From: Dongia sedimenti
GTDB taxonomy: Bacteria; Pseudomonadota; Alphaproteobacteria; Dongiales; Dongiaceae
Length of the DNA stretch: 64,000 bases
Direction of reading: 5' to 3'
NCBI GenBank assembly: GCA_030715195.1
Contig: JAUYVI010000007.1
Span: 186,001 to 250,000, forward strand
This document shows, one piece after another, positions 42,699 through 64,000 of the stretch. The notes beneath the pieces were generated by a model. That model did not search any database. It was not told the origin of the DNA and worked only from the letters and a program-made list of their open reading frames with translations. Within the stretch, counting starts at the first letter, position 1. The number at the start of each line of letters is the position of its first letter. The translations under genes and the position numbers were made by a program.

Positions 42699-42739
42699 CG
42701 GGGAAAGCGCGCGGCGTTTAGCGGAGCGGAGGCGCGGCC

Positions 42740-43695: not shown

Positions 43696-43889
43696 GCGAG
43701 CCGTTTCCGGCAGCGAGCGAGCCGACTGAGCAGGGCGAGCAGGTGCTCGTCCCCGGCGTGGCGCCGCTCACTTTGCAGCGGCGTCTTGCCGCTCTGTTCA
43801 CGGCACCTCTCACGTCCTCGAAACCGCAGCGACCGATGAACATCGGCCTGTTCGATGAGGACGCACGCAATCAACTCGACTTGTTCTGA
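43692..43889 (+). CDS. Small conserved ICE protein of unknown function
   Basis: A 65-aa protein starting at ATG 43692, which overlaps the ArdC stop as ATGA once the ArdC frameshift is corrected. That overlap itself supports the corrected frame. The sequence ends GLFDEDARNQLDLF, a short acidic motif. No domain is recognised. It lies 12 nt before the DUF2958 gene. Confidence 0.6.
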   Translation: MSEPFPAASEPTEQGEQVLVPGVAPLTLQRRLAALFTAPLTSSKPQRPMNIGLFDEDARNQLDLF

Positions 43890-43901
43890 CGGAGGCAACC
43901 C

Positions 43902-44357: not shown

Positions 44358-44417
44358 ACCCGCGCTAACCCCCGCCCGCCGGGTTCGCGCGGGCTTCATC
44401 AAGAGAGGAGAACCACC

Positions 44418-47679: not shown

Positions 47680-48040
47680 GGCCCGTGAGCTGCCCCGCCC
47701 GGCACGGCCGGGCGGGGCTCGCCAAACCAGTTGCACGGGCTCCGGAGAGACCGTCTCCCATCGCGACGCTCCCGGAACAAAGGCCGTGACGGATCACGGT
47801 CCCGCAGCGGGGAATGTCTGGGCAATCCGGCGCTGGCGAAACGCACAGTCGGCCCCACCAGAACGGGCTCCGGATCTCGCGCAATCTTGCCGGCGCACCG
47901 CGGAACTCGAGCCGCGGCGCGCCGGCTCCGGCGAAAAGTGACAAGGGAGTTTTCGCCCGTCCCGAGGCGTCCGCCGCGCGGCCATGCTCGCCCCAGGACG
48001 GCGATTTGCGCCGTCCTTTGAGATCAGAACGAGGGCGATC

Positions 48041-48268
48041 ATGACCGACGAAGCGGCAAGGGCGGCGGCGGCGAAGAAGGGGAGTCCGTTCCTCAACACG
48101 GCACAGGCCGCTTTCTACATCGGCCTCTCCAAACGGACCCTGGAGAAGATGCGGGTCACCGGCGGCGGCCCCAAATACCGCAAGCATGGCCGCTATGTCC
48201 GCTACCACATCGACGACCTGAACGCCTGGTCGGAGGGCCGCGCCAAGGCCTCCACGTCCCATGCGTAG
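48041..48268 (+). CDS. AlpA/excisionase-type helix-turn-helix protein
   Basis: A 75-aa HTH_17 protein: FLNTAQAAFYIGLSKRTLEKMR, then GPKYRKHGRYVRYHIDDLNAW. In the ICE context it may regulate the transfer genes downstream or act as a directionality factor. ATG 48041 is chosen because the HTH lacks the extra N-terminal residues of the longer frame from 47984. It overlaps the peptidase gene start by 8 bp. The 360 bp before it holds no clear gene. Confidence 0.82.
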   Translation: MTDEAARAAAAKKGSPFLNTAQAAFYIGLSKRTLEKMRVTGGGPKYRKHGRYVRYHIDDLNAWSEGRAKASTSHA

Positions 48269-48785
48269 GCAATTGAGGGGCCGCCGCCAGGGCTTCGCGG
48301 CGCTGACGCTGGCGGTCGCCTTGTTCGGCGTTCTCGCCACCGCCGCCAGTGCGATCCCGTCGCGGCGCCTGGTCTGGAACGCCAGCGCCAGCGCGCCGAT
48401 CGGGCTCTATTGGCGCATCGACGGCCGGCCCGAGCGGGGCGACCTGGTGCTCGCCTGGGCACCGTTCTGGGCACGGCGGCTCGCAGACGAGCGGTACTAC
48501 CTGCCTCTTTCGGTGCCCCTGGTGAAGCGTGTCGCCGCAATCTCCGGCGACGTCGTCTGTGCGACCGGCCGTGAGATCGTCATCAACGGCGAGCCGGTCG
48601 CGCGCCGAATGGAATCGGACCACCTCAATCGGCTCTTGCCGGTCTGGACCGGCTGCAGGCTCCTCGCGCCCGGCGATTTCCTGCTGTTGATGGCCGATGT
48701 GCCGGACTCGTTCGACGGCCGGTATTTTGGGGTCAGCGACGGGCACGACATCATCGGTCGCCTGGTGCCGGTTTGGACGCGGTGA
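48261..48785 (+). CDS. traF: S26-family signal peptidase (conjugal TraF-type)
   Basis: A 174-aa membrane-anchored serine peptidase with an N-terminal TM segment, the catalytic Ser region ASAPIGLYWRI near residue 48, and Lys in PLVKRVAAISGD near residue 90. TraF-type enzymes mature the conjugative pilin. It overlaps the HTH gene upstream and the transglycosylase gene downstream (GTGA), so the three are translated together. Confidence 0.87.
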   Translation: MRRQLRGRRQGFAALTLAVALFGVLATAASAIPSRRLVWNASASAPIGLYWRIDGRPERGDLVLAWAPFWARRLADERYYLPLSVPLVKRVAAISGDVVCATGREIVINGEPVARRMESDHLNRLLPVWTGCRLLAPGDFLLLMADVPDSFDGRYFGVSDGHDIIGRLVPVWTR

Positions 48786-49600
48786 GGGCGCCGCTCGTCG
48801 CCGCTTTGGTGGTGGTGTCGTGTTTTCACGGCGCGGCGGCGGCGCAAGAAGCCAGACCGCTCGACCCGGAAACCCGAGCGCGGATCGAGGCGCTGGACCC
48901 TTTCATCGACGAGGCAGCGCGGCGGTCCCCAGTGCCCATGACCTGGATTCGGGCCGTGATCGCGGCGGAAAGCGGTGGGCGAACGGAGCTCAATGGCAAG
49001 CCGATCACCTCTCCCGCCGGCGCCATGGGGCCGATGCAGGTGATGCCGGAAACTTACGAGGAGATGCGCCGGCGCTACGGGCTCGGGCCTGATCCTTACG
49101 ATCCGGAGAATAACATCCTCGCCGGCACAGCTTATCTCGCGGAGCTCTACCGCCGCTTCGGAATGACCGGAATGTTCGCCGCCTACAATGCCGGGCCGGA
49201 TCGATATCAGCAGTTCCTTGACGACGGGAGACCGCTGCCGGCGGAGACCAAAGCCTATTTGGCAGCACTCCACCTATCGGGTTCCGGCGCGTCGGCGGAG
49301 CCGAGCTTCGCATCGGGCCAAGGTCTGTTCTTCCAGCTCCAAAACAGAAGCCCTCCGGGATCGGTGCCGCACCCGGAGATTGAAACCGGCGGGCTGTTCG
49401 TGCCTTTGGTGCCGCCGGAGCCCGACCCCGCCGCCGGAAGTAGGGGCGCTGGGCAGCGGAGAGAGGGGTCTCGTCTCGGTCAATATCAGCGTAACAGCCA
49501 GGTCGAACCGTCTGTCAAGGATGCGTGGTCCCCCCAAAATGCTGGCGCATTTTGGCTCCCCCACGCCCCGCTCCGCGGCGCGATGACGTCGCGTCCCTGA
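48782..49600 (+). CDS. Lytic transglycosylase (conjugation-associated)
   Basis: A periplasmic muramidase that opens peptidoglycan for the transfer apparatus, about 272 aa. It has a signal peptide (LVAALVVVS to AAAAQEA), catalytic Glu in VIAAESGGRTE near residue 63, MQVMPETYEEMRRRYG and FAAYNAGPDRY. GTG 48782 overlaps the TraF stop and is preferred to TTG 48773. The last 50 residues look unrelated to the family and run across a hairpin at 49523-49566, so the true end may be earlier or altered. Confidence 0.86.
   Translation: MRAPLVAALVVVSCFHGAAAAQEARPLDPETRARIEALDPFIDEAARRSPVPMTWIRAVIAAESGGRTELNGKPITSPAGAMGPMQVMPETYEEMRRRYGLGPDPYDPENNILAGTAYLAELYRRFGMTGMFAAYNAGPDRYQQFLDDGRPLPAETKAYLAALHLSGSGASAEPSFASGQGLFFQLQNRSPPGSVPHPEIETGGLFVPLVPPEPDPAAGSRGAGQRREGSRLGQYQRNSQVEPSVKDAWSPQNAGAFWLPHAPLRGAMTSRP
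49523..49566. repeat. Perfect hairpin at the 3' end of the transglycosylase gene
   Basis: CCAAAATGC (49534-49542) pairs perfectly with GCATTTTGG (49547-49555) over a TGGC loop. Outer arms GCGTGG (49523-49528) and CCACGC (49561-49566) also pair, separated by symmetrical unpaired pyrimidines. It is possibly a terminator-like or processing element. Confidence 0.68.
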
Positions 49601-49668
49601 CAGCCGTTTCGCCGGCCGATCTCCAGGGCTTGTCCTCGATCAAGAGGATCAAAGCCACGGAGGATACG

Positions 49669-50025
49669 ATGTCTCAAGCACAGCATGATCACGCCGCGTT
49701 CGACCGGTTTCCGGCACTCGTTCGGGACCTCACGGCGGAGTTCGGAAGCGACGGAATAGGCGCCGTCATCGAGAAATTCATCGCGGCGGAGGAGGCGGAT
49801 TTCCTCTGGGAAAGCCGGTTCGCGGAGCGGAATCTCGGCGACCTCGAGTGCTTCGACGGCGACGAGGACAGGTGCCAGCGGGTCGCGGTGATGGGGTATT
49901 TCCAGGGCGAATATTACGTCGCGATCTGTATCGTGGACTCGGAAAGACAGGCGGCGGCGCTGCTCAAATCACGGCAATTCGAGAGCTTCGAGGGCGCCGA
50001 AATCGCCTTCCTGGCGAGCAGCTAA
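49669..50025 (+). CDS. Small ICE protein of unknown function
   Basis: A 118-aa acidic protein (MSQAQHDHAAFDRFPALVRD, then GAVIEKFIAAEEADFLWESR). Genes of this type occur between the transglycosylase and relaxase genes of related ICEs. No functional motif is recognised. An ATG preceded by GGAGGA-like sequence (ACGGAGGATACG) supports the start. It is the last backbone gene before the cargo block. Confidence 0.7.
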   Translation: MSQAQHDHAAFDRFPALVRDLTAEFGSDGIGAVIEKFIAAEEADFLWESRFAERNLGDLECFDGDEDRCQRVAVMGYFQGEYYVAICIVDSERQAAALLKSRQFESFEGAEIAFLASS

Positions 50026-50744
50026 GGCTTCAATCCAAGGCTCGGGAGAGCGGTTTGAGGGCCGTTTTCTCGAGCCTCTGATCCTGCGTCTGTGCGGTCG
50101 AGCAGGGGAGGTCATCGTGCGAGAGAGTATGAGGAGGTAGGGGCGAGAGAAGTTTTGCGCGAGGGCAAGATAAAAGCAGTGTCTCTACGAGACACGCAAG
50201 CCCTTGTCTGCACATCGACATCTATGGAGACGAGCTGCAGCAGGCGCCTCGCATCCCACTCTGCAGCATTGAGGTGGAACTAGTAGTCTCTAGATCAGTG
50301 CAGATTGGTCGGCGACTGATGTAATGTGCTGACGCGTAGATCGCGTCCCAGCGGCGTTTGCGACAATGAAAGCCCGCTACGATCGAGGTCGATTGCTGGA
50401 CCCGGAGCTCGAAATGGCATCGGCCGGCAGAGGCTTCGATCTGATAGCAATGAAACGAGAGGCCCACCTTTGAACGACCGATCGTTCTGTCGTCTTGGTC
50501 GCGACCTCACGTATTATGGGCAGCAACGATCCCGGTTGCTACTCGAACCTAGCATTCATGGGTTCCGCATTTAGGTCCGGCCGAGCTGCATCCAATCGCA
50601 AGCCGGATTAAGGCTCATCCGGGACTTTCAGACGGTCTGCTTTGCCGGCACCTGCGGCCAACGCGTGACCGCCAGGGCTCAACCCTGAGCACACTTGTTA
50701 CTTCGCAGCTAGTCTGCATAATTGTTGGTTGGGGGGAGAAAACC
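50026..50744. other. 719-bp gene-free region immediately upstream of the reverse transcriptase
   Basis: No frame has a motif or good ribosome site. Two small perfect hairpins are visible: GTGTCTC-TAC-GAGACAC (50179-50195) and CAGGG-CTCAA-CCCTG (50673-50687, with an alternative GCTCA-ACCC-TGAGC fold). Some defence reverse transcriptases use an adjacent non-coding RNA, so this stretch is a candidate locus, but nothing here proves one. Confidence 0.5.
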
Positions 50745-53700
50745 TTGCGGACGCAACGCCATACATCCTGGAGCGATGTAGATTTATCCGACCTCTTGGG
50801 GGCATTTCGCAAGGCCAAGGCGGACTGCTTCTTCGAGCGGTCGACATACTGTGCTGAGCAGTTCTCGAATTACGAACAGAAGCTCTTTTCCAACCTGGAG
50901 GAGCTCCTTTCGGAGCTCCACGAAGGGCGGATTGCGAATGTGTTCGTGGAGGCGCTTGGAAGGCCGCGGATATTCGCCAAGTGCCTTGGCGCAAAACCAC
51001 GTGCCAACGGCACACCACAGTGTTTCTTTTCTGACGACCGCCGGGCGTTCGAGCGTCTGCAGGATACTCACGACCTCACGCCGGAGTTCCGGCTGGTCGG
51101 CGATTTCGGTGTTGAAATGCATGTACTGTCCGGGCTCTGGATCAATCTCATCGGGCACAGGTACGATGCCCGCCTCCGCGGCCACTCGTTCGGCTCGCGC
51201 GTGCGGCGCTTTGGCCGGACCGGCCTCAGAGAGCGTCCAACTGGAGACTACCAGTACGACGCTGTGGGGTCGTTCGAGCCCTATTTCCAGCCCTATCGGG
51301 CCTGGAGAGACCGTGGAATCGAAGCGATCCGCTCGGCTCTCGACGGCGACGAGCCTGTTGTTGCGCTGACGCTGGACTTCTCCTCGTATTACCATAACGT
51401 TGACCCGTCGTTTGTCGTTGATCCGGCTTTCCTCACGACGATCGGTCTCGAACTCAATCAGTGGGAAATCGAGTTCACTCAGGCGTTCGTGGTGGCGCTC
51501 CAGGCCTGGGGTAAGGAAGCGTCGAAACTCATCGGCGCTGGGGCGCGCCGTTCGCAAGACCAGCTCGGCGGCCTGCCAATAGGACTTGCTGCCGTTCGTA
51601 TCATCACCAACGTCCTGCTCTATGAGTTTGACGAGCGGATACTGGATGCGCTGGCGCCGGTCTACTACGGCCGGTATGTCGACGACGTGTTCTTGGTCAT
51701 TCGAGACTCGGGACGAATCCGCAGCGCTACCGAGCTTTGGGATTTCATTAAGCAGCGCGCTGGTGACATCTTCTTGGATGTCGAGACGCGCAGAGAAGTT
51801 GAGGTCCGCCTTCCTGGAGGCTATCAGGCGCGCTCGCGCCTGACGTTGAAGCAGGAGAAGCAGAAGGTCTTTTTCCTTCGGGGTCAGTCGGGCCGCGATC
51901 TGCTCAACAACATCGCTCACCAGGTAAATACTCTCTCCAGCGAGCGCCGCCTCATGCCCTTGGCGGAGGAGATGGACACCATGGCCTCTGCGAGGGCCTT
52001 GGCGGCCGCCACCGGCACAGCTGAGGAGCCGGACTCCTTACGCCGCGCCGACGGCTTAACGCTGCGACGACTTGGATGGGCGCTCCAGCTTCGGTCGGCG
52101 GAGATACTCGCGCGCGACCTCGATCGGAAAGTGTGGGCCGAAGAACGCAAGCGCTTCTACGATTTCGCCTGCGCCCACATCCTGCGGCCGGACAAGATTC
52201 TTGAGCACGTCGACGGCCTCGCGAGGTTGATCTCTTTGGCCGTATCACTGGCCGATTGGTCCGACGCGTCAATGATGTACCGAAAGGCAACTTCTGCCCT
52301 CAGAACGCTCGAGAGCAATCTGCGAAACGGCAACTGCAAGATCAATGGCCAGGACCGGAAGCTAACGGCCCGTGTTTGGGACGGATTGCGCGAATGGGTG
52401 CAAGGAGCTTGCCGCGAAGCCGTCCTCCGGTCGATCGCTTACGACCCTCGAAGGCGTGTGCGGCCGTCCCGCGCGGCGCATGACCTCCTGACACAGCTGA
52501 GGATCGACTATCTTGTGGATTCTCTGCTTCGCGTCGTCCTGGAGCTCCGCGAAACTGATTGGGCGAAGCGTCCCTATCGAGAGCACCTGAGGGTCGATGC
52601 CGACCGCGAACGCCCTGCGATTGCGGGCGAAGAGGTGCTACCAGAAGTCTTCGAGCACTACGCGAAGCTGTCGGAATTCCTCGAGAGGTCCCGGCATGTT
52701 GAACCGACGTCAGGTGTGCGCCGCGTGAACCCGGCGGCCCTGGAGTCCGACCTGAATTCCAAGCCCTCGTTGCTTCCGTACATTTTAGCGACGCGGCCCT
52801 ACAGTGCCCAGGACATCGCGCTCTACCGCCCCGACGAGTGCATTTTCGGCGCCGGTGACGTGCCACCCGCCCAGGCCTGGGCACATTATTGCCGTGCGAT
52901 TCGTGGCGCACCCCAATCCGCTCCTGACTCGGCTGGCGACAGGCCGTTGCCCTCAAGGACGAAAGGACGCCTGGTCGATTTGACTGGCGCCGCGACGGGC
53001 AGGTCCGTTCACCTCGGCATCACGAGTCTGGAAACGAGTCAGGCCACCTGGGCGCTGGCCGCTGACGGAAAGCCGGATCGGTCGGCTGAGCGCTATAGGC
53101 GCTTGGCGACGATCGTGAACTTAGCGGTTCAGGCCACACCGCGACCTACCCATCTTCTCTTGCCGGAGCTGAGCGTCCCCGAAGCCTGGCTGGACACGAT
53201 CAGCGCCGTGCTCCTCGAGGCGGGGATAAGTCTAATCGCGGGGCTAGACTATGATCTCCACGGGCGCGATCGGATTGGGAGCTCCGCGGTTCTGGTCCTC
53301 AGGGACGATCGCTTGGGGTTCAAGACGGCTGTGCAAATCCGCCAACCGAAGTTACAGGCTGCGCCTGGCGAAGAGGAACACCTTCTTCAGTCCTATGGCC
53401 GCACGTGGGTCGATAGCGGTGGTAGAAGTCTACACCCGGTCTATGTCCACGAGGGCCTTCATTTCGGTGTGCTCATTTGCTCCGAACTTCAGAACATAGA
53501 CCATCGTCAGAGCTTCCAAGGCGATGTGGACCTCCTCGCGGTGCTATCGTGGAATCAGGACTTGGAGACATTCTCGGCTCTCGTCGAGGCCGCCTGCCTG
53601 GACGTGCATGCCTATGTGGCGCTAGTGAACAACCGTGCCTATGGCGACAGCCGGGTGCGGGCGCCCCGAAAGGACGCGCACGCCCGAGACATTTGCCGGA

Positions 53701-53864
53701 TCCGCGGCGGAAAGAACGATCATCTGGTTGTTGTAGAAATCAATCCGACGCTCCTGAGGGCTCAGCAAAGTCGCGTACGCCGATGGCCGAAACCGAACGA
53801 CAGGTACAAGCCCGCACCTGAGGGTTTCAAGATTTCCAATGGTCGAAGAATCACGCCAAATTAG
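50745..53864 (+). CDS. drt1: Reverse transcriptase-nitrilase fusion, DRT1 (UG1)-type defence protein
   Basis: A 1039-aa two-enzyme protein. The RT half has motif A LTLDFSSYYHNVD (Asp211), GLPIG (276-280), the catalytic YVDD box (311-314) and a lysine/arginine-rich motif D region. The middle (400-770) is helical with no clear family. The C-terminal half is a nitrilase/carbon-nitrogen hydrolase domain with an intact triad: Glu808 (PELS), Lys869 (QPKL) and Cys912 (ICSE). RT-nitrilase fusions define DRT type 1 (UG1), shown in published work to protect against phage. The start is TTG with GGGGGGAG 8 nt before it. It opens the cargo block and precedes two recombination-type nuclease genes. Confidence 0.9.
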   Translation: MRTQRHTSWSDVDLSDLLGAFRKAKADCFFERSTYCAEQFSNYEQKLFSNLEELLSELHEGRIANVFVEALGRPRIFAKCLGAKPRANGTPQCFFSDDRRAFERLQDTHDLTPEFRLVGDFGVEMHVLSGLWINLIGHRYDARLRGHSFGSRVRRFGRTGLRERPTGDYQYDAVGSFEPYFQPYRAWRDRGIEAIRSALDGDEPVVALTLDFSSYYHNVDPSFVVDPAFLTTIGLELNQWEIEFTQAFVVALQAWGKEASKLIGAGARRSQDQLGGLPIGLAAVRIITNVLLYEFDERILDALAPVYYGRYVDDVFLVIRDSGRIRSATELWDFIKQRAGDIFLDVETRREVEVRLPGGYQARSRLTLKQEKQKVFFLRGQSGRDLLNNIAHQVNTLSSERRLMPLAEEMDTMASARALAAATGTAEEPDSLRRADGLTLRRLGWALQLRSAEILARDLDRKVWAEERKRFYDFACAHILRPDKILEHVDGLARLISLAVSLADWSDASMMYRKATSALRTLESNLRNGNCKINGQDRKLTARVWDGLREWVQGACREAVLRSIAYDPRRRVRPSRAAHDLLTQLRIDYLVDSLLRVVLELRETDWAKRPYREHLRVDADRERPAIAGEEVLPEVFEHYAKLSEFLERSRHVEPTSGVRRVNPAALESDLNSKPSLLPYILATRPYSAQDIALYRPDECIFGAGDVPPAQAWAHYCRAIRGAPQSAPDSAGDRPLPSRTKGRLVDLTGAATGRSVHLGITSLETSQATWALAADGKPDRSAERYRRLATIVNLAVQATPRPTHLLLPELSVPEAWLDTISAVLLEAGISLIAGLDYDLHGRDRIGSSAVLVLRDDRLGFKTAVQIRQPKLQAAPGEEEHLLQSYGRTWVDSGGRSLHPVYVHEGLHFGVLICSELQNIDHRQSFQGDVDLLAVLSWNQDLETFSALVEAACLDVHAYVALVNNRAYGDSRVRAPRKDAHARDICRIRGGKNDHLVVVEINPTLLRAQQSRVRRWPKPNDRYKPAPEGFKISNGRRITPN

Positions 53865-53987
53865 ACACGATGGAGTCCTAATCCTATACGCCGCACGGGG
53901 GGCGCGATAAATCGCCTGATGATGCATACCGCTAGCCTGCCCTTTGCTCCCGGCCGGCGCGGCCAGACTGAAGGACAGCGAGGCGCA

Positions 53988-56603
53988 ATGGAGCGAATTA
54001 CACGCGTCGTGTCAGGGCCCCTTGCGCTCAAGATGGAGCGGATCAAGGCGGCACGGGAACACAGGCTAGGAGTCGAAGTAACAACCCTGCCCCTGTTGGC
54101 GGCACGATTGGCGGGTGGCTTCCGGCGACCTCCCACTACCGAGTTGCTTCAGCCTGCGATCCGCTACGCCCTGAAAGCGGGAGGATTCAAGGAGCTCGAG
54201 CCTCTGCGCGAACTGCCGGGGATGGTGCGTGCCGTCCAATCGACCCTGGCAACGATTTGGCGCGCCGATTTTGTCCTTGATGCGAACAGAAGTGCGCGCC
54301 TCAGGGATCTAGCAACCTTGGATCAGCGGGTCCGCCGTACTTTGCCCGCGGGTGTGCTTGTCCCGCCGGACTTACGCGACGCGGCCATCGCACGTCTGTC
54401 GCATGCTAAGCTGTTGCTTGGGCGCGTCGAGCTGACCGGGATCATCGACGTCGATCTCGTATGGCGTCCATTGATCTCGGCCCTCGCCGGATTATTGCCA
54501 TTGTCTTGGGCCGCTCCATGCGCGGGCGACCGGAATTGGTTTCCTGGCTCCCTGACAGAGTCGCGGATACCTACCCAGGTACGTCTCACGGCCGTAGTGT
54601 GTGCCGACCCGCACTCCGAAGTGGTCGAGACCCTGCGCTGGGTAAGAAGTCTCATGGTTTCGGGTGTGGCTGCCTCGGACATCGCTATAGCGGCTACCTC
54701 CTGCGAGCCTTGGGACCAGGCGATGCTCGTACTGGCTCGCGGTGCCGGGCTCCCGTTACATTTTACTCATGGGATTGCAGCTCTCGAGGAGCCGGCGGGT
54801 CAGGCCTGCGCAGCGCTGGCCGATGTTCTTTTGCGCGGCGTTTCACAACGTCGGGTGCGCCGGCTTCTGCGACGCTCGGCACGTGCCCGCGAAGGGCTCC
54901 CGGGCGATTGGGGCCAAGGCCTCCGGCGCTCGGCGGGACTCTTCACCGTAGCGCAATGGCAAGCCGCCTTGATTGCCGCGCGTTCGGAGCGCCCAAGCGG
55001 TGTGGCTAGTGAGGACGTTCTCCTCCCTCGCATCGCAGAGCTGGCTCAAGGAGTGACAGAGGCTGCGGCGGCAGGCGAGAAGTTCTTGGGGGGCCATGCA
55101 CTTGCGATCTGGCGCCAAGCCTTGCGAGCGGCCCCTGCCGAGGCCCTCGACGTGAGCCTTCAAACTCTGCGCGTCGCTGACGGAATCTCTCCTGGAGCGG
55201 CGGTCACATGGGGCCCCGCCGCGCACTTGGCGTCTTCGCCGCGGCGACACGTCCGCCTGCTAGGCCTCACCGGCCGCGGCTGGCCGCGCGCCAGATCCGA
55301 GGATCCCCTGATTCCGGAGCATGTGCTGTCGCGCGTTCAGCTGGAACCTATCCCGCGGCCGGAACAGGACATCCGCGCGTTCGAAACGATTCGGGCGCAC
55401 GCGGTCGGAAGCTTCTGTGTTTCGCGCAGCCGTCGGTCCGCCGAGGGAACGCTGCTTTCACCGAGTCGGCTTTTCCCCGTTGACGGCGTTGAGGTATTCG
55501 CTAAGGCGCGCGCGCCGGCACATGCCTTCAGCGAATCCGACCGGCTCCTGGCTCGTCCACTGGAGGCGCGCGAAAAGCCAACGCTGGCGCTCGCAGTTGC
55601 CGCGTGGAGGGCCTGGCAATCGCCAGATTTTACGGCCTGGGACGGGCAAGTCGGTCCGGACGACCCGGTTGTGCGTGCTGCTCTTGCCCGCGAACAGTCG
55701 GCCACGTCTCTGCGGCGCCTGCTTCGCGACCCGTTGGGTTTTGTCTGGCGCTCCGCCCTTGGCTGGCGGCCGGCCGATATCCATTCCGACGTGCTGGCCC
55801 TGGACCACGCCACGTTCGGCGAACTGGTTCACGAAGTCCTTGGGCTGGCCGTGGAGCGTTTGGAATCCACTCCTGGTTTGAACCGCGCAACGTTGCAGGA
55901 ACTGCAGGGCGCGGTCGAGGTCGCCGGAGACACGGTCGCATTGCGCTGGCCATCCGAGCGACCGGTGCCACCCGCACTGCTTTGGCGGCGCACAATCGAC
56001 GAAGCGGTGCGCTTGGCCGTCGCCGGTTTGGCGTTTGACCAAGGACTGCAGCCCGGAACGCGCAGCTGGAGTGAGGTGCCGTTCGGCGAGGAAGCCGAAG
56101 CGGCGGCTTGGCAAATCGACGCGGAGGTGCGGCTGGGAGGCTTGCGGGTGGGCGGTCGCATCGACCGTCTGGATTTGCGGGGCGACGGCGGCGCGGCGCG
56201 AGTCACCGACTATAAAACCAGTGCAGTGCCACGGAACATGTCAGCAATAGTGCTCGCCGGCGGCGCGGAGCTGCAGCGCGTGACCTATGCCGCGGCCGTT
56301 CGATGCCTTCTACCCGAGGTTCGCCAAGTCGTGTCCCGATTGACTTACCTTCGCGGCGGCCCCGAAGCACACGCCCTTTCCGGCGACGCGCTTGACGCGG
56401 CAATCGCCGACACAGAGCGGTTCATCGCGGCCGCCGTGGCCCTAGTCTCGGACGGAGCCGCGCCGCCGGGGCCAGATGCGCGAGAGCCTTTCAATAATCT
56501 GCGGCTGGCGCTGCCGGCCGACCTGGAGAACTATCTGTTTCGAAAGTCGCGCGCGCTCTGGACCGCGGCGGGCGAGCTGCCGACCTTCTGGAGCGCACCA
56601 TGA
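53988..56603 (+). CDS. AddB-like protein with PD-(D/E)XK nuclease domain, helicase site lost
   Basis: An 871-aa protein related to the AddB/RexB family. The N-terminal region lacks a Walker A motif. The C-terminal RecB-type nuclease keeps the His in FGELVHEVLGL near residue 612, GRIDRLDLRGDGG near 722 and the catalytic VTDYKT near 738. The cysteines that hold the Fe-S cluster in canonical AddB are not seen (DPLGFVWRSALGW at the first site, none at the C-terminus). ATG 53988 with GAGG upstream is preferred over ATG 53919. It overlaps the next gene by ATGA, so the two are made as partners. It lies 123 nt after the RT-nitrilase gene. Confidence 0.8.
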   Translation: MERITRVVSGPLALKMERIKAAREHRLGVEVTTLPLLAARLAGGFRRPPTTELLQPAIRYALKAGGFKELEPLRELPGMVRAVQSTLATIWRADFVLDANRSARLRDLATLDQRVRRTLPAGVLVPPDLRDAAIARLSHAKLLLGRVELTGIIDVDLVWRPLISALAGLLPLSWAAPCAGDRNWFPGSLTESRIPTQVRLTAVVCADPHSEVVETLRWVRSLMVSGVAASDIAIAATSCEPWDQAMLVLARGAGLPLHFTHGIAALEEPAGQACAALADVLLRGVSQRRVRRLLRRSARAREGLPGDWGQGLRRSAGLFTVAQWQAALIAARSERPSGVASEDVLLPRIAELAQGVTEAAAAGEKFLGGHALAIWRQALRAAPAEALDVSLQTLRVADGISPGAAVTWGPAAHLASSPRRHVRLLGLTGRGWPRARSEDPLIPEHVLSRVQLEPIPRPEQDIRAFETIRAHAVGSFCVSRSRRSAEGTLLSPSRLFPVDGVEVFAKARAPAHAFSESDRLLARPLEAREKPTLALAVAAWRAWQSPDFTAWDGQVGPDDPVVRAALAREQSATSLRRLLRDPLGFVWRSALGWRPADIHSDVLALDHATFGELVHEVLGLAVERLESTPGLNRATLQELQGAVEVAGDTVALRWPSERPVPPALLWRRTIDEAVRLAVAGLAFDQGLQPGTRSWSEVPFGEEAEAAAWQIDAEVRLGGLRVGGRIDRLDLRGDGGAARVTDYKTSAVPRNMSAIVLAGGAELQRVTYAAAVRCLLPEVRQVVSRLTYLRGGPEAHALSGDALDAAIADTERFIAAAVALVSDGAAPPGPDAREPFNNLRLALPADLENYLFRKSRALWTAAGELPTFWSAP

Positions 56604-59600
56604 CGCTCGTCGACGAAGCTGCACGGCGCCGTGCGCTGACCGCCTTGTCGGAGACTCTCTTGGTCGAGGCGGCAGCGGGAACCGGCAAAACGGCACTAAT
56701 GGCGGGCCGTTGTGCGTTGCTGCTAGCAAGCGGGATCAAGCCCGGCGCTATCGCGGCGATTACCTTTACCGAGCTAGCCGCCGGCGAGCTTGCTTTGCGC
56801 ATCCGCCAGATGGTGGAGGCACTTCTGAGTGGGAAGATCCCACCGGAGCTTCATCCAGCCCTTCCCGACGGCCTGCACGCGGACCAGCGCACGAAGCTCC
56901 AGGCGGCGCACGCGCGGCTGGACGAGCTCACAGCGACCACGATCCACGGGTTCTGCCAATCCATAATTCGCGCCTATGCGGTCGAGGCTGACCTTGATCC
57001 GGGCGCGGCGGTGATGGACGGAGCGCAGGCGGATGCGATGTTCGAGGGAGCGTTTACGCGATGGCTGCGCGGCCGCCTGGCCCAGGATGCCGAAGCGGCG
57101 GGAGCCGTTGGCGTGCTCGCAGGCGACGATCCGCTGAAGGTTGTCGATACGCTACGAGAACTCGCACGACTGCGGCGCAGTCACCCGACTGCTCGACCGC
57201 CGTCCGTAGACCTCTCCTACCGCCCGGACTTGGAATTCCGCGATGCTGTTGAAGCCTTCGAGCGCTGGGCTGCGGGCCAGCCGGGCGAGCCTAAGACCCA
57301 AGACCTGCTGGAAGAGATGCGCGATTTGGCTGGCTTCTTCGGCGACACCCTCGCCCAGCCCTGCAGTTTTGCCGTCCTGTGGCGGCTAGCGAGCCCACGG
57401 CGAACGCGATTTATGAAGGGCAAAGGCCTTGGATGGCGCAGCTATAATCTTAAGGCGGCCTGGAAGCAGGTGGCCGGAGCGGAGGACGGCCCCGCGCTGT
57501 TCGAAGCGGCATCATCGTACTATGAAGCCTGCCGAACTGCCTTCGCTGCTTTGATGGGCGAGATCGGTGGCGCGTTGATCGCAGACCTGTCAGTCGAACT
57601 CGACGAACTTCTCGCCGACTACGCTGGCCGCAAGCGCGCCGCGGCGGCGCTTGACTTCGACGACCTTTTGTTGCGCGCCCGTGCACTGGTGCGGGGCCAC
57701 GAAGAGGTGCGCCTGTCCTTGGGACACCGATACCGGCACATCTTCGTCGACGAGTTTCAGGATACTGACCCGGTTCAAGCCGAGATCATCTTCGCGATCA
57801 CAACCGACACGTTCCCACCGCGCTGGACGGACGCCGTTCCGCGCCCTGGTGCACTGTTCTTGGTGGGTGATCCCAAGCAGGCCATCTATCGATTTCGGGG
57901 CGCTCACGTTGCAGCATACCAGGCGGTCCGCGAAGCCTTCTTGGCGCGTGACCCCAGCTCGATCATCCAAGTGACTGCTAATTTCCGCTCGGAAGAGGGG
58001 ATACTGGAGCACGTTAACAGCTGCTTCCAGCTCCCGCTCGCTGCCGCGGGACAGCCCGGCTACGTGCCGCTTGCGCCGACATTGGAGCCTCGCGACGGGC
58101 TCGTGCCTTGCGTGGCCAAGATCACCGTCGACGTCCGGACCCTCTCGGCTAGGCAGCAACGTGATACCGAGGCGGAGGCAGTAGCGCTCCTCTGTCGCAG
58201 GCTCGTGGGTGCGGTCGATGTCCGCCGCCGCGACGGGAAACGTACGCTGCTGCGCCCTGGGGACATCGCACTCCTCGCACCGACCGGATCTGAACTGTGG
58301 CGCTACGAGCGTGCGCTCGAGGCAGAGGGCCTCGCGGTTGCCTCCCAGGCCGGCAAGGCGCTTATGCGAAGGCAGGAAACGCAGGACCTGCTGGCATTGC
58401 TACGGACGTTGGCTGACCCATCCGACACGCTGGCATTCGGAGCGTTCCTTCGCGGACCTATGGTCGGCCTCACCGAGGCGAGGCTACTGGCGGTGACCGC
58501 ACAGCTTCCGCCGGCGGCCGATGGGCGCCCAACCATGTTTACTATGCTGACCGACCCGTGCCAGGTGGCGGACGCGGAGGCTCGGCAGGTCCTGGAGATG
58601 CTCCAAGTACTCCGCCGTCGCACCGCTTCGGCAACCCCCGCCGCCCTGCTCGCCGAGGCCATCGAGCGCCTGAACCTGCGGGTCGTGCTCGCGCTACGCA
58701 CTGGTGATCGTAGCGGGCGCGCTATTGCCAACCTCGATGCCCTCATTACCTTGGCGCGGCCGTATGGCGTCCGAGGCTTGTCCGCGTTCGTGGCCGATCT
58801 CACCGCCGACTGGCAGGCGGGCCGTGGGCTAACCGAAGGACGTATAGACGAGAGCGAAGAAGCAGTATCCCTGGTCACAATCCATAGCGCCAAGGGGCTC
58901 GAGTGGCCCGTGGTGATTCCAGTGAATACCGGCACTCAGCTGCGAGCTCCCGAGCAGTTCGTGCACCGCCAATCAGATGACACCTTGCATTGGGTACTCG
59001 GCGGCCTGCCGCCTCCCCACTTGGCCGACGCCCAGGCCGAGGAAGCGAGCGAGGCGGCCCGTGAGCGGGAGCGACTTTGGTACGTGGCGTGCACTCGGGC
59101 CCGAGACTTGTTGATACTGCCCGATCTAATCGGCGCAGACCCTACGAGTTGGGCGCGCATTTTGGACCTGGGCGCGACGCGCCTCCCTGAACTCAACGCG
59201 ATGGCTCTCCCCGAAACGCGGCGGCGGCGGACGCCTTCAGCGACGAACCTGCAGACGCCGGAGGTCTTCGCCGCAGAGGATGAGTTCATCGTAGCTGCCG
59301 CACCGCCAATCGTTTGGCGGCGACCCAGCGACCATGATGATGACCGTCAGCACCTCGGGGAGGTGGAGGCAAGCGAAGCGGTGGACGATCAGGTCGAAGT
59401 GGTTCAGCCCATAGGCGCCGGGCGGGTCCGCGGGATTCTCCTGCACAAACTCATGGAGGAGATGGTCACCGGCGAGCTTGCCAGAGAGCAGGCCATCGTC
59501 ACTGCGCGTGCTGCGGAGCTCGGAGGGGAACTCCGCACGCTTGAAGCCGGCGAGGCCACCCATCCTGATCCCGCAGAGTGCGCGATGACAGCGCTACGGG

Positions 59601-59893
59601 CTCGCAGCTTGCCCGAAGTCGAAGCGTTTTGGCCGTCGCTCCAAACCGAAGTCCCACTGTTCGCGATAGATGCCGATGGCGCGTTGGTCGCAGGCCGGGC
59701 GGACGCTCTCTCCGTTGTCGAAGGCCGGATCGAACTCGTCGTAGACTGGAAGAGCGATCTCGCCCCAAGCCAGGCTGAAAGGGCGGCGCATGCCAGCCAG
59801 GTGGCGGCCTACCTTAGAGTTACGGGTGCTGCCCGTGGCGCGATCGTTTATCTCAGCCGGGGCGAGGTGGTGTGGGTGCAAGCTGAGGCTTGA
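56600..59893 (+). CDS. AddA/RecB-like UvrD-family helicase-nuclease
   Basis: A 1097-aa SF1A helicase with a C-terminal nuclease: Walker A EAAAGTGKTAL (25-31), motif Ia AAITFTELAAGEL, Walker B HIFVDEFQDTD near 380, motif III LVGDPKQAIYRFRGA, motif V VSLVTIHSAKGLEWP, motif VI YVACTRARDLL near 825 and a RecB nuclease VVDWKSD near 1046 with His in GILLHKLMEEM. It should unwind and degrade double-stranded ends together with the AddB-like partner. Its position inside an ICE cargo block right after a defence RT suggests anti-phage use rather than housekeeping repair. Confidence 0.85.
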   Translation: MTLVDEAARRRALTALSETLLVEAAAGTGKTALMAGRCALLLASGIKPGAIAAITFTELAAGELALRIRQMVEALLSGKIPPELHPALPDGLHADQRTKLQAAHARLDELTATTIHGFCQSIIRAYAVEADLDPGAAVMDGAQADAMFEGAFTRWLRGRLAQDAEAAGAVGVLAGDDPLKVVDTLRELARLRRSHPTARPPSVDLSYRPDLEFRDAVEAFERWAAGQPGEPKTQDLLEEMRDLAGFFGDTLAQPCSFAVLWRLASPRRTRFMKGKGLGWRSYNLKAAWKQVAGAEDGPALFEAASSYYEACRTAFAALMGEIGGALIADLSVELDELLADYAGRKRAAAALDFDDLLLRARALVRGHEEVRLSLGHRYRHIFVDEFQDTDPVQAEIIFAITTDTFPPRWTDAVPRPGALFLVGDPKQAIYRFRGAHVAAYQAVREAFLARDPSSIIQVTANFRSEEGILEHVNSCFQLPLAAAGQPGYVPLAPTLEPRDGLVPCVAKITVDVRTLSARQQRDTEAEAVALLCRRLVGAVDVRRRDGKRTLLRPGDIALLAPTGSELWRYERALEAEGLAVASQAGKALMRRQETQDLLALLRTLADPSDTLAFGAFLRGPMVGLTEARLLAVTAQLPPAADGRPTMFTMLTDPCQVADAEARQVLEMLQVLRRRTASATPAALLAEAIERLNLRVVLALRTGDRSGRAIANLDALITLARPYGVRGLSAFVADLTADWQAGRGLTEGRIDESEEAVSLVTIHSAKGLEWPVVIPVNTGTQLRAPEQFVHRQSDDTLHWVLGGLPPPHLADAQAEEASEAARERERLWYVACTRARDLLILPDLIGADPTSWARILDLGATRLPELNAMALPETRRRRTPSATNLQTPEVFAAEDEFIVAAAPPIVWRRPSDHDDDRQHLGEVEASEAVDDQVEVVQPIGAGRVRGILLHKLMEEMVTGELAREQAIVTARAAELGGELRTLEAGEATHPDPAECAMTALRARSLPEVEAFWPSLQTEVPLFAIDADGALVAGRADALSVVEGRIELVVDWKSDLAPSQAERAAHASQVAAYLRVTGAARGAIVYLSRGEVVWVQAEA

Positions 59894-60100
59894 GAGCGAA
59901 CAGCTAGGGTGGACGCATGTCGCAGACGATGGTCACGATCTTTACTTCAGCGGCTCAGCAAGGCGTTAGCAGTCGGCACTGGGGTGCCAGATTTTCAGAG
60001 GGATCTTCCCGAACTGTTTGGACATCTATGCGATCGGGCGTGCAGCCTGGTAGCAAACCGATCAACAGTGGGTGCGGGATCGCCTTCGCTCTCCGGAGGC

Positions 60101-60691
60101 TCAGCTACCAAGATGCTTGCTGTATTTTTGGATTGCGTCGTCGAGCAGCGATTGGGCGTACTCCCATCGCTTGGTAGCGCTACGCTTCTTGTGTGTCCAG
60201 GCCTTGAGTTTACCCGGCCCATTCCGGCGCTTTGCCAACGCGTCGAGCCGGAAGCGCGCATTCTCGACGTAATAATTAAAAGTCCATTCTCGATTCTTCT
60301 TGTCCTGCACATATGAGATGGCATTGTCCTCAATGAGCCCCCCGAGGAAGTCTCTGAAGTGCTGGTAAACTAGCTTCCGTTTGCTCAATTTCTCTCCGAG
60401 GAAGACGGCGCGCCATAACGAGAATGCGGCACCGACCATATCTTGAGCAGCAAAGAACTGTTCATCCTCCCATGTGCTGCGGTTCTTTTCGAGGAGTTCA
60501 AACAGTTTGAGGCAACACTGTTGATTCTCGGAGCGCCGCTCAACCAGCCATCGCATATGCGCGAGATTTTTAGCAGGCGCATCGATCTTGTCAGTATGCA
60601 CCGTCTTCGAAGATCCCGCGTCTATTCGGCTAGCCGTGTGCGCCAATCGATCACCTATGTGCAGGCGGTGCTTTGTCAGTGCCGGTCTCAT
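60101..60691 (-). CDS. Hypothetical protein in the cargo block
   Basis: A 196-aa, Lys/Arg-rich protein on the opposite strand to its neighbours. It has no recognised domain; the middle (FSLWRAVFLGE, then YQHFRDFLGGLIEDN, EWTFNYYVENARFRLDAL) reads as a helical protein. The local base composition is richer in A/T than the ICE backbone, suggesting separate acquisition. The start is uncertain; an inner Met at residue 46 is possible. It may belong to the defence cargo, but nothing in the sequence shows it. Confidence 0.55.
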   Translation of the reverse strand: MRPALTKHRLHIGDRLAHTASRIDAGSSKTVHTDKIDAPAKNLAHMRWLVERRSENQQCCLKLFELLEKNRSTWEDEQFFAAQDMVGAAFSLWRAVFLGEKLSKRKLVYQHFRDFLGGLIEDNAISYVQDKKNREWTFNYYVENARFRLDALAKRRNGPGKLKAWTHKKRSATKRWEYAQSLLDDAIQKYSKHLGS

Positions 60692-60996
60692 TTACGCTGA
60701 TCACATATCAGGTCGCCATGCATGGTCGCTTGGTTTGCGCTTCTGCCACACCGTATAGCCTCGCCTGGCCATCCCGTGGGCACTGTCATAGCGCCTACTC
60801 TTCAAGACATTGCCCATAACTGCACGAGAACCTCAACCGCGCCTTGCCCCTGTCGGATACTATATCTAGTAGTTTCGACAGATGGAGAGCCACAGTAAAG
60901 CTTTATAATCAAAAACTTATTGACGTTATCCACAGTCAGAAGGACAACGTTGTCGCAACTTATGCGGCAGCGACTGCGCCGCGACCCGGGGGGATT

Positions 60997-61422
60997 ATGG
61001 ACAACGTTGCGCGCGCACTCGAGGTGTATTCGCAGGAAACGCGAAGATACGCGGAGCTAAAGAGTTCAACGGAGGCGACCTACTATCCGGTGATCAGGAA
61101 CTTACTGACAACCGCTTTGAACGAGCGCTCTCTGCCGTTTGAAATACGAACAGGCACGAGTGAGCAGCGCCGTGTGAAAGGGCGCGATGCGCCAGACTTT
61201 GTCCTCAGTGACAACGGACTGCTGGTATCCGCTTTCGGCGAAATCAAACTCCCCGAAGTCGATCTCGAAGACATCGCAATGTCTGAAGATAGAGACGACC
61301 AAATCGGTCGCTATCTTGCACAGACAGGTATGCCGGCCGTTGAGCTACCTCATTGCCGAGGTCTTGCATCTGAGGCCGCCGATCACCTTCTAATTTTCGG
61401 AAGATGGTCGAGTGATTCATGA
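60997..61422 (+). CDS. Truncated restriction-type PD-(D/E)XK nuclease domain
   Basis: A protein of about 141 aa that matches the N-terminal nuclease domain of Eco57I/type ISP restriction enzymes: ELKSSTEATYYPVIRNLL, then DAPDFVLSD (Asp) and FGEIKLPEVDL (Glu-x-Lys), followed by DDQIGRYL. The methylase and helicase parts are absent. The frame is open upstream to 60844, but ATG 60997 with GGGGGG before it is a better start. Its TGA overlaps the relaxase ATG (ATGA). It looks like the stub of a larger gene cut when the block joined the ICE, yet the neat coupling leaves open a small working protein. Confidence 0.6.
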   Translation: MDNVARALEVYSQETRRYAELKSSTEATYYPVIRNLLTTALNERSLPFEIRTGTSEQRRVKGRDAPDFVLSDNGLLVSAFGEIKLPEVDLEDIAMSEDRDDQIGRYLAQTGMPAVELPHCRGLASEAADHLLIFGRWSSDS

Positions 61423-63401
61423 AGTGCGACGAAAAGTTCACGCCCAAGCTGGGTCGGATACGATCGCGATCGCTTCGAGGGCGGACATTCCTGCGAGAGA
61501 TCCAGACAGCCCTCGGGCGCGCAAGTAGGCTTCGCCAGGCAAGATCGGGTAGACAGAGCAAATTTGACGGCAGCCGCATCGGTCGGGGCGCGGGTATCGG
61601 CCGAGTCGTAGGGCGGCAGGACCGTGTCAGCGCACTACGGTGCCGGCACGTCATCGTTAAGGCGCGGCTGATACGCTTGTCTCCATCCGGCCTAAGTGGC
61701 GCAAAGGCTCACCTTCGGTACCTGCAGCGTGATGGCGTTACGCGAGAAGGAGAGCCAGGCGCCCTCTATAGCGCCGAACAGGATCGTACCGAGGGATCGA
61801 GTTTTCTCGATCGATGCGATGGCGATCGCCACCAGTTCCGCTTCATCGTTTCCGTGGAGGATGCGATCGAGTACTCGGATCTGAAGCCGGTGACCCGACG
61901 GCTCATGCTTCAAATGGAACAGGATCTCGGCACCAAGCTCGAATGGATCGCCGTTGACCACTACAACACCGGCCATCCGCATACCCATATTGTCCTCAGA
62001 GGCAAGGACGACCAGGGCAAGGATCTCATCATAGCCCGCGAGTACTTGAGCCGCGGCATGCGCGAGCGCGCCGCGGAACTGGTCACCCTCGACCTCGGCC
62101 CACGCACCGACCACGAAATCCAATCCCGCCTGCGCGCTGAAGTCGAGCAAGAGCGGTTCACGAGCCTCGACCGCAGCCTTCTCCGCGAAACCGAACCTGA
62201 CGGCACGTTCCGATCCGGCCGTGACCAGGACAGTTTCCGCCAGACCCTCCGCGCCGGCAGGCTGCAGAAGCTGAAGCGCCTCGGACTGGCTGAGGAGGTC
62301 TCCCCCGGCCGATGGCGACTGGCTGCCGACCTGGAGTCGACCCTCCGTCGCATGGGCGAACGCGGAGACATCATCAAAGCTTTGCACCATGAGCTGACCC
62401 GCGCCCGGATCGACCGAGCATCATCGGACTTGGTGGTCCACAATCCTGGAGAGCTAAGCGGGCCGTTGATCGGCCGGGTCGTCTCACGTGGCCTCGCCGA
62501 CGAGCTCTCAGACCGGCACTATCTGGCCATCGACGCGTTAGACGGCCGCATCCACCATCTCGAAATCGGCCAAGCCGATGCGACCGAACCGACGCCGGAA
62601 GGCAGCATCGTCGCCGTCAGGCCGAAGCAACCGGCCGTCAAACCGACCGACCACACCATAGCCGACATTGCAGCGGCCCATGACGGCCGTTACAGCGCCG
62701 AGCTGCACCTCAAGTACGATCCCAGTACCACGGCAGCTTTCGTCGAAACCCAGATCCGGCGCCTCGAAGCCATGCGCCGTGCCGATATCGGCGTTGATCG
62801 CGAAGCAGACGGAACCTGGGTCATTTCATCAGATCATCTGGATCGGGCACTCCAGTATGAGCAGGTGCTGGCCCGCAAAGCACCAGTAGAGGTCCAAGTC
62901 CTCTCAACGCTGAAGCTGGAGCGTCAGGCTCACGCAGAGGGGGCCACCTGGCTAGACCACGAGTTGGTTGCCGGTGATGCAATGCCGATACGAGAGGCTG
63001 GCTTCGGCCAGGAGACCCGAAAGGCCTTAGCGCAACGTCGCCAATGGTTGCTGGAGCAGGGCTTGGCGTCGGAGAGCCAGGGCAGTTTCGTCTACCGGGC
63101 CAATCTCCTTCGAATCTTGCGCGAGCGCGAGTTGCAGAAGGTTGGAGGGCAGCTCGCTGGCGAGCTTGGGTTGCCTTACACACCGCAGGAACCGCGGGGG
63201 CGGATCGAAGGCATCTACCGCCGCCGTGTCGATCTCGCCAGCGGTCGTTTCGCCGTCGTTGAGAACGCGCGGGAATTCACCCTCGTCCCTTGGCGGCCCG
63301 TGCTCGAACGCAATCTCGGTCGGCAGGTCACTGGGGTTGCGAAAAGTGACGGCGGGATCTCGTGGAATATCGGACGCCAAAGGGGTCCCGCGATCTCATA
63401 G
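61419..63401 (+). CDS. Relaxase (VirD2-like, DUF3363)
   Basis: A 660-aa conjugative relaxase that nicks oriT and pilots the DNA strand. The histidine triad is visible in VDHYNTGHPHTHIVLRG near residue 185, preceded by the N-terminal Tyr region LRYLQRDGV. A DUF3363 domain follows from about residue 300 to the end. The N-terminus MKCDEKFTPKLGRIRSRS matches the usual start, so ATG 61419 is retained although it overlaps the truncated nuclease. oriT is expected close by but is not identified. Confidence 0.92.
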   Translation: MKCDEKFTPKLGRIRSRSLRGRTFLREIQTALGRASRLRQARSGRQSKFDGSRIGRGAGIGRVVGRQDRVSALRCRHVIVKARLIRLSPSGLSGAKAHLRYLQRDGVTREGEPGALYSAEQDRTEGSSFLDRCDGDRHQFRFIVSVEDAIEYSDLKPVTRRLMLQMEQDLGTKLEWIAVDHYNTGHPHTHIVLRGKDDQGKDLIIAREYLSRGMRERAAELVTLDLGPRTDHEIQSRLRAEVEQERFTSLDRSLLRETEPDGTFRSGRDQDSFRQTLRAGRLQKLKRLGLAEEVSPGRWRLAADLESTLRRMGERGDIIKALHHELTRARIDRASSDLVVHNPGELSGPLIGRVVSRGLADELSDRHYLAIDALDGRIHHLEIGQADATEPTPEGSIVAVRPKQPAVKPTDHTIADIAAAHDGRYSAELHLKYDPSTTAAFVETQIRRLEAMRRADIGVDREADGTWVISSDHLDRALQYEQVLARKAPVEVQVLSTLKLERQAHAEGATWLDHELVAGDAMPIREAGFGQETRKALAQRRQWLLEQGLASESQGSFVYRANLLRILRERELQKVGGQLAGELGLPYTPQEPRGRIEGIYRRRVDLASGRFAVVENAREFTLVPWRPVLERNLGRQVTGVAKSDGGISWNIGRQRGPAIS

Positions 63402-63612
63402 ACATACCGATCCGGCGTTGGTGTGATTCAGCAGATGGATGTTCGGCTGATCTGCGCTCTCCTCGCTTCTATCTCCAAGATCGTCAGGCCGTGCACCGAA
63501 ACGTCGTTTCAGCGTAGTTGGGCGCAGGTAATGGCGCCGAGAGATTCTTAGCTGTTGGTGAATGCTTGTCTCGTCGCGCTGCTCTTTGCAGCGCTCATCG
63601 GGACGAGACGAG

Positions 63613-64000
63613 ATGACACCGACCAGCCTCCTCATCGGGCAGATCTCCATCGTGTTTGCCATCGTCATCGCCGGCGTCTGGTCGGCGACGCAATGGGCGG
63701 CGAGCATGCTGGGATACCAGGCGCAGCTTGGGGCACCTTGGACGGTGCTCTTCGGCTTGCCCGTTTATCGCCCCTGGCAGCTTTTTCCCTGGTGGTACTC
63801 CTACGACGCCTATGCGCCGGCGGTCTTCAATCGCGCCGGCATGCTGGCGGGAGCGAGTGGGTTCCTGGGCTGTGGTGCCGCTGTCGCCGGCTCGCTGTGG
63901 CGGGCGCGGCAAGCGCGACTTGTCACGACCTACGGCTCCTCGCGCTGGGCGACTTCCCGCGAGATTATCCGCGCCGGCCTCTTCAAGGCTTCGGGTGTTT
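63613..64000 (+). CDS. traG: Conjugal coupling protein TraG/VirD4, N-terminal part
   Basis: The first 129 codons of a type IV coupling protein: an N-terminal TM (LIGQISIVFAIVIAGVW), a second TM near residue 80 and the SSRWATSREIIRAGLF region typical of TraG before the ATPase domain. The gene leaves the window at base 64000, so no Walker motif is visible. It lies 211 nt after the relaxase, as in other ICEs of this type. Confidence 0.88.
   Translation, partial: MTPTSLLIGQISIVFAIVIAGVWSATQWAASMLGYQAQLGAPWTVLFGLPVYRPWQLFPWWYSYDAYAPAVFNRAGMLAGASGFLGCGAAVAGSLWRARQARLVTTYGSSRWATSREIIRAGLFKASGV

Follow-up and report, generated by a model that had tools for sequence, protein, structure and literature searches.

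The 64,000-nucleotide stretch of Dongia sedimenti analyzed here (contig JAUYVI010000007.1, positions 186,001 to 250,000; hereafter the window) carries, within an integrative and conjugative element (ICE), a gene for a reverse transcriptase (RT) fused to a nitrilase, followed on the same strand by genes for an AddB-like nuclease and an AddA-like helicase-nuclease, a pair that we call AddBA. A sequence-only reading of this DNA had proposed that the three genes act together in defence. Our analysis favors another explanation, to which we give a probability of about 0.72: two independent defence cargos adjoin in one ICE slot, and their adjacency is one of neighborhood, not of a conserved joint system. 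This interpretation follows from the absence of the pair at all 22 loci of RT relatives, from the variable upstream neighbors of AddBA, and from the different cargo in the same slot of a sister ICE. The three open reading frames (ORFs) lie on one strand at exactly the coordinates first read from the sequence, and their features are as follows.

50745..53864, plus strand: RT-nitrilase of UG5 type, a class 3 defence-associated reverse transcriptase (DRT), 1039 aa with a TTG start; PDLC03780 RT_UG5-nitrilase, 893.9 bits; 17-protein alignment and structural model
51675..51686, plus strand: RT catalytic motif YVDD, residues 311-314; Y311, D313 and D314 unchanged in 17/17 proteins
53028..53831, plus strand: nitrilase domain with E808, K869 and C912; PADLOC nitrilase stretch 762-1029; triad kept in 17/17; Foldseek matches to nitrilase-superfamily amidases
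53919..56603, plus strand: AddB-like nuclease subunit, probable start 53988; PDDEXK_1 62.3 bits with C-terminal PD-(D/E)XK; no Walker A; aligned by hhalign to canonical AddB
56600..59893, plus strand: AddA-like helicase-nuclease, 1097 aa; UvrD-helicase 169.2 bits, PDDEXK_1 26.3 bits, addA_alphas 257 bits

The RT class names ('class 3' DRT) follow PMC13275509 or general usage.

The RT-nitrilase belongs to the UG5-nitrilase family

The match of the RT to the PADLOC UG5-nitrilase model runs from residue 3 to residue 1038 and covers positions 12-900 of the 907 in the profile, which by profile and motif evidence makes the protein an ordinary UG5-nitrilase, that is, a single-gene class 3 DRT. When the window RT was aligned with 16 full-length relatives at 38-50% identity, originating from Methylotuvimicrobium, Gallionella, Bradyrhizobium, Acidithiobacillus, an acidobacterial metagenome-assembled genome and others, the YVDD residues Y311, D313 and D314 and the nitrilase residues E808, K869 and C912, already noted as intact from the sequence, proved invariant in all 17 proteins. 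An AlphaFold model based on this alignment (mean pLDDT 77, pTM 0.80) matched nitrilase-superfamily amidases at its C-terminal end in Foldseek, while longer and looser alignments were obtained with AbiA, DRT4, UG15 and DRT6 at query-length TM-scores of 0.20-0.26. The window RT shares with the PADLOC family the full-length match, both sets of active-site residues, the single-gene organization and the changing neighbors, and we found no feature that sets it apart. PMC8934634 describes UG5 RTs as fused to, or encoded near, nitrilases.

The initial label of DRT1/UG1 was therefore correct as to an RT-nitrilase of an anti-phage family and wrong as to the subfamily. Like DRT1/UG1 (PDB 9yfd), the window protein combines an RT with a nitrilase, yet the phmmer similarity (E 1.4e-6) has its best stretch in the nitrilase at residues 911-1028, and the Drt1a profile reaches only 99.2 bits, with its best stretch at 804-1013, again in the nitrilase part, compared with 894 bits for UG5; the DRT1 of genome G271, discussed below, scores 1274 bits. 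Conservation of the DRT1 priming residue Ser402 does not extend to other class 3 DRTs, as PMC13275509 reports, and the DRT5L described there is probably a UG5-nitrilase RT, an equation of ours given that the paper's text does not use the name 'UG5'.

Relatives of the RT occur without AddBA

One scan of a genome collection for close relatives of the RT gave 22 loci, 16 of them near full-length and 6 partial, with several at contig ends. Relatives of AddB or AddA were detected in none of the 22 (tblastn, E 1e-3), and at least 6 kb of downstream sequence was available in 20, the other two offering 4.4 kb (L008) and 2.1 kb (L009). Plasmids gave the same picture: six records, from Sinorhizobium, Escherichia and Vibrio, hold an RT relative, two of them over at least 80% of the RT length, and none is among the AddB-bearing plasmids (61 of 62 AddB records compared, the remaining one being Rhizobium by genus tallies). 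The RT changes its company too, because it lies downstream of type I restriction genes in three loci, 18-43 bp after the last such gene in L002 and L013 and 750 bp after it in L005, which gives the appearance of nesting within hsd operons.

A conserved partner of the UG5 RT was also sought by clustering 252 ORFs from the surroundings of 26 RT loci, one of them that of the window, and no resulting group has a member from the window. The widest cluster spans six loci at scattered distances and on both sides of the RT. Two clusters span four loci each, and in the three of these that were scanned (L002, L005 and L013; the fourth is L022) their members are type I restriction genes.

AddBA is a divergent AddAB-type pair

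The AddB-like and AddA-like genes overlap in an ATGA (56600-56603). Translation of the former probably begins at M24 (53988), near which the alignments of most relatives begin, so the gap between the RT and AddB is about 123 bp instead of 54. The AddB-like protein has a Pfam nuclease match (PDDEXK_1, 62.3 bits) and no Pfam helicase match; consistently, the residues at least 95% conserved among 36 AddB-like proteins retain the nuclease motif and include no Walker A. The protein has no PADLOC match at E 0.01 and no PHROG match, and a sequence search of solved structures returned nothing convincing (best E 0.22). By hhalign, however, the profile of the 36 proteins aligns over its whole length with that of 11 canonical AddB proteins from 11 genomes (probability 98.9, 767 columns, 20% identity). 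AddB of Bacillus subtilis carries Fe-S cysteines; none of the positions with at least 95% conservation across the 36 AddB-like proteins is a cysteine, although the B. subtilis expectation may not hold for alphaproteobacterial AddB. The AddA-like protein matches UvrD-helicase at 169.2 bits and PDDEXK_1 at 26.3 bits (cut-off 22), and Walker A, DEFQD and the nuclease D..D.K are each at least 95% conserved across 33 aligned proteins. Domains, motif conservation and overlap thus bear out the early description of a helicase-dead nuclease coupled to a helicase-nuclease.

The host has its own enzyme, encoded by adjacent AddB and AddA genes on contig C21 of the window genome, and canonical AddB scored above cut-off in all 12 genomes queried. 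The C21 AddB is the sole match in the window genome to addB_alphas (TIGR02786), which the ICE protein does not match, while the AddA-like protein reaches 257 bits with addA_alphas (NCBIfam), below the cut-off of 860.75, and is about 28% identical to host AddA over 69% coverage. Because the canonical pair is present on C21, the ICE pair is an addition, and by homology it is an extra, divergent AddAB-type pair beside host AddAB. The likeness to AddAB lies in an AddA with SF1/UvrD motifs and a PD-(D/E)XK nuclease, and in an AddB-like protein with a helicase-like body, a nuclease and full-length homology; the differences lie in falling short of the curated AddA and AddB models, in the low identity to host AddA and in the missing Walker A of the AddB-like subunit.

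Gabija (GajAB) likewise combines a nuclease with a UvrD-type helicase, and the AddA-like protein reaches up to 115 bits with GajB models. However, GajA, an OLD-type ATPase-nuclease, is absent here, its place being taken by an AddB-like partner with no PADLOC match, and in one locus (L047) a true Gabija adjoins AddBA as a separate system. The top PADLOC model for the AddA-like protein is RTasHel (RT-associated helicase, 128 bits), which first looked like support for an RT link; the model proved unspecific, being also the top one for the AddA of L047 (132 bits), beside Gabija, and of L071 (132 bits), beside Shango.

AddBA recurs on mobile elements beside changing defence systems

AddB relatives were found in 62 of 72,556 plasmid records, in 59 with at least 80% cover, and 40 of the 62 plasmids are predicted to be conjugative and 13 mobilizable. 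None was found in 50,697 phage records, and none was confirmed in IMG/VR in a scan that used short sequence patterns from a single protein. Of the 385 genomes of the class, eight, including that of the window, hold a full or nearly full AddB (the copy in G065 lacks about 120 residues), and five further genomes hold fragments or nuclease-only matches. One AddB plasmid comes from Desulfosarcina, outside Proteobacteria.

For the neighborhoods we used 36 AddBA loci outside the window, comprising 25 plasmid stretches chosen for diversity from the 62 records and 11 genome stretches; excluded were L073 and L074 (fragments), L129, which coincides with L131, and weak or incomplete matches of G029, G190, G244, G433 and G409:C29. 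The 36 are not independent, the four Gabija loci, for example, being closely related. AddA follows AddB in all 36, overlapping it or lying within about 20 bp in 33; larger gaps occur in L078, L084 and L088, that of L084 owing to an incomplete AddA match. The coupling of the two genes suggested by the window alone is thus that of one two-gene unit, recurrent in defence islands.

Two of the 36 loci start at a contig end, leaving 34 with upstream DNA, of which 20 have a recognized system upstream of AddBA. Every kind of system was called by PADLOC in one locus or more, and the remaining loci were assigned by tblastn identity or annotation.

Gabija, 4 loci: L047, L048, L050, L089
Shango, 5 loci: L052, L054, L071, L081, L091
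Hma, 3 loci: L067, L068, L130
BREX, 2 loci: L082, L084
Type III restriction, 2 loci: L079; L053 (weak, 83 bits, about 4 kb away)
Single cases: E1-E2 in L078; AbiE in L066; DRT1 in L069; retron-type RT fragment in L072

Azaca genes (ZacA/DUF6361 and ZacB) lie downstream of AddBA in six loci (L055, L068, L069, L083, L085 and L092), with ZacA at 384 bits in L055 and ZacB at 568 bits in L069. They add four loci to the 20, so that 24 of 34 are flanked by a recognized system on at least one side. No system was named in the other ten (L046, L049, L051, L070, L080, L086, L087, L088, L090 and L131): the one or two upstream proteins scanned in L046, L049, L070, L080, L088, L090 and L131 gave no or weak PADLOC matches, and the annotation places toxin-antitoxin or AbiE genes in the vicinity of some of the ten. 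Multiubiquitin clusters were left uncounted, the ThiF protein of one (L055) having no PADLOC match at E 1e-10. As a small control, a single 50-kb stretch elsewhere on one such plasmid, judged by annotation only, had no defence gene among 43.

In at least 12 of the 34 loci (L047-L050, L067, L068, L070, L082, L084, L089, L092 and L130) the upstream neighbor is divergently transcribed, with a 58-aa ORF between it and AddB in L084, so AddBA needs no co-transcribed partner in those loci. An RT of the UG5 or DRT1 kind was detected by tblastn in only one of the 36, other or distant RT types having been scanned in part of the loci. Sequences upstream of AddB, set side by side to seek a conserved promoter, showed to the eye nothing evidently shared between the window and the relatives. 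The distribution and neighborhoods suggest that AddBA is a divergent mobile branch of AddAB, mostly on plasmids, that recurs in defence islands.

Several arrangements within these loci are of separate interest. In L054 (a Roseovarius plasmid), L071 (genome G288) and L091 (a Phaeobacter plasmid), Shango SngABC is followed after a 2-bp gap by AddB and AddA on one strand, possibly a five-gene unit tighter than the RT-AddBA arrangement. A 1113-aa DEAD-type helicase or its relative takes the place of Azaca downstream in L067, L082, L084, L091 and L130. A gene for a WYL-domain regulator lies divergently just upstream of AddB in L067, L068, L070, L082, L084, L092 and L130, where it fronts Hma, BREX and other genes, and the intergenic region could be a shared control region. 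A second UvrD-helicase gene lies upstream in L055, L083 and L085, near multiubiquitin and ThiF genes; that of L055 is a distant AddA relative (about 28%), and those of L083 and L085 are known by annotation. Finally, in L072 (G065) a 218-aa retron-type RT fragment (RT_VI, 136 bits) stands directly upstream of the AddB that lacks about 120 internal residues.

The three genes lie in a variable cargo slot

The surroundings of the three genes support the ICE setting proposed at the outset, as shown by a strong relaxase match and by a sister ICE in G391, a genome of another genus of the same family, that matches both flanks of the cargo.

50106..61362, no strand: variable ICE cargo slot; flanks align with the sister ICE of G391
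61419..63401, plus strand: RlxS relaxase, right border of the slot; NF041267 relax_RlxS 956 bits, cut-off 850
48261..49600, plus strand: left border genes, a TraF-like signal peptidase (TraF_Ti 91 bits, slightly below the cut-off of 100) and a lytic transglycosylase (SLT 65 bits)

Window segments 42374-46093 and 47842-50105 before the slot, as well as 61363-63998 after it, align to G391 at 72-81% identity, with 72-74% for the segments directly flanking the slot (47842-50105 and 61363-63998). An RlxS match is present in 5 of 61 genomes, that of the window counted. Between the matching flanks, G391 holds other cargo, namely a transposase, of IS66 type as judged by eye, together with a 682-aa ORF that matches no family and a gene for a TIR protein (PDC-S66 204 bits, TIR_2 69 bits), from which we conclude that the slot is variable and, judging by these gene contents, able to hold defence genes.

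Within the sister locus (G391:C9 364001-400000; L104, L105), the TIR protein is ThsB-like and the 682-aa ORF, by eye, is maybe a GHKL-type ATPase. The window slot also contains a 196-aa ORF on the minus strand (60101-60691) with no Pfam, PADLOC or PHROG match, and a 192-aa ORF without family (60844-61422) that overlaps the RlxS start by 4 bp. As the ICE homology starts inside this latter ORF, at 61363, fusion of a remnant at the border of the slot may have created it.

Weighing independence against coupling

Several observations weigh against two independent cargos. In L069 (G271), AddB-AddA is directly preceded, at about 300-370 bp, by a DRT1 gene in the same orientation; a MkoA-like gene lies further upstream and Azaca downstream of the pair. 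This locus is the only partial repeat found, with an RT of a different family. Full-length class 3 RTs (UG5-nitrilase or DRT1) occur in just three of the 385 genomes (G000, which is that of the window, G033 and G271) and AddB in eight, and the two are adjacent in two of the three RT genomes, one being the window's own. Leaving out G000, AddB is present in one of two RT genomes, for which the hand-computed chance is about 0.04, a post hoc figure that ignores the clustering of defence genes. The RT-AddBA cassette is also codirectional, and a promoter scan predicted one site ahead of the RT (50695-50722) and no plus-strand site in the interval from the RT to AddB. On the other hand, the 19 kb surrounding the DRT1 of G033 contain no AddB, and none of seven plasmid records with a DRT1 relative (three over at least 80%) is among the AddB records. 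We therefore read G271 as a further case of neighbors in defence islands, leaving the idea of coupling alive at low probability.

A composite system, with the processing of DNA ends by AddBA linked either to DNA synthesis or to nitrilase activation by the RT, would account for the single strand, the short gap, the lack of a promoter-like site within it and the G271 locus. A helicase link is not absurd either, as the phage helicase Dda is needed, though not sufficient, for DRT1 activation according to PMC13275509. The same paper, however, reports that DRT1 protects Escherichia coli as a single gene, and joint action of the three genes, as first proposed, finds no echo in the 22 RT loci, the six RT plasmids or the shifting upstream neighbors of AddBA, one of 36 of which is a UG5 or DRT1 RT. 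The sequence-only reading would have counted as refuted had homologs never repeated this neighborhood; it is absent around the UG5 relatives and partly repeated once, with DRT1, so that this refutation does not strictly apply. We consider a composite system improbable.

Retron Ec48 has been proposed as a guard of RecBCD. By analogy, the RT-nitrilase could watch AddBA or host AddAB and kill the cell when a phage protein blocks the enzyme, a model to which three RT types upstream of AddBA (UG5 in the window, DRT1 in G271 and the retron-type fragment in G065) lend some appeal, as does Gabija, which acts on RecBCD-free DNA (preprint PMC12407980) and is the upstream neighbor in four loci. The rarity of the RT-AddBA linkage argues against a guard, and the retron-type ORF is only a 218-aa fragment adjoining an incomplete AddB; we regard this model, too, as a long shot. 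Equally speculative is a broader version in which conjugative elements pair AddBA, as a portable anti-phage helicase-nuclease, with many different partners, the RT-nitrilase here serving as its sentinel: a phage end-protector or AddAB inhibitor would stall AddBA, upon which the RT-nitrilase would kill the cell, as a protein-primed counterpart of a retron guarding RecBCD.

Somewhat less remote, though still unlikely, is that AddBA is not a defence system and instead serves DNA repair or recombination of the element itself after conjugative entry. The predicted conjugative (40/62) and mobilizable (13/62) plasmids and the empty phage records (0/50,697) fit such a role, as do repABC genes near AddBA in L046. 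Against it, the host already possesses AddAB, and the company of AddBA consists mainly of defence genes and not of transfer or replication genes, although, as judged without a position-matched null, this company may merely reflect defence islands that plasmids of this kind carry anyway. Independent defence cargos remain the reading that we prefer.

Proposed activities of the two cargos

By transfer from its family, and given its domains and intact active sites, the RT-nitrilase most likely serves as its own primer for untemplated DNA synthesis, with the nitrilase most likely an abortive effector as in DRT1. PMC13275509 reports template-free, self-primed DNA synthesis by class 3 DRTs, DNA adducts for DRT5S and DRT5L as well, and an abortive effector role for the DRT1 nitrilase. 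AddBA, judging by its motifs, homology and company, most likely loads onto the ends of linear DNA from invading phages or plasmids, which it would unwind and probably degrade, and it may back up host AddAB when a phage blocks the host enzyme. The preprint PMC12407980 reports that several phages shield their DNA from RecBCD and that DNA so shielded is acted on by Gabija; this report fits the company of AddBA and does not prove its role.

Significance

The RT family of this locus is already known, and the new and more interesting part is AddBA as a variant of the AddAB kind. No description of an AddAB-like defence pair or of an RT-AddAB link was found in the literature searched, the main text of PMC13092281 included, which is weak evidence of novelty given that most subscription papers and the main UG/Abi survey lay outside the search. 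The locus also cautions against inferring a joint system from codirectional genes a short distance apart in a defence slot. What recurs is a second AddAB-type machine, unlike that of the host, which ICEs and conjugative plasmids carry in the neighborhood of Shango, Azaca, Gabija, BREX, Hma and DRTs. Should it prove anti-phage, AddBA would be a sizeable defence family whose AddB subunit has no PADLOC 2023 model, and it would pose a testable question, namely whether mobile elements carry their own degrader of DNA ends because phages disarm that of the host.

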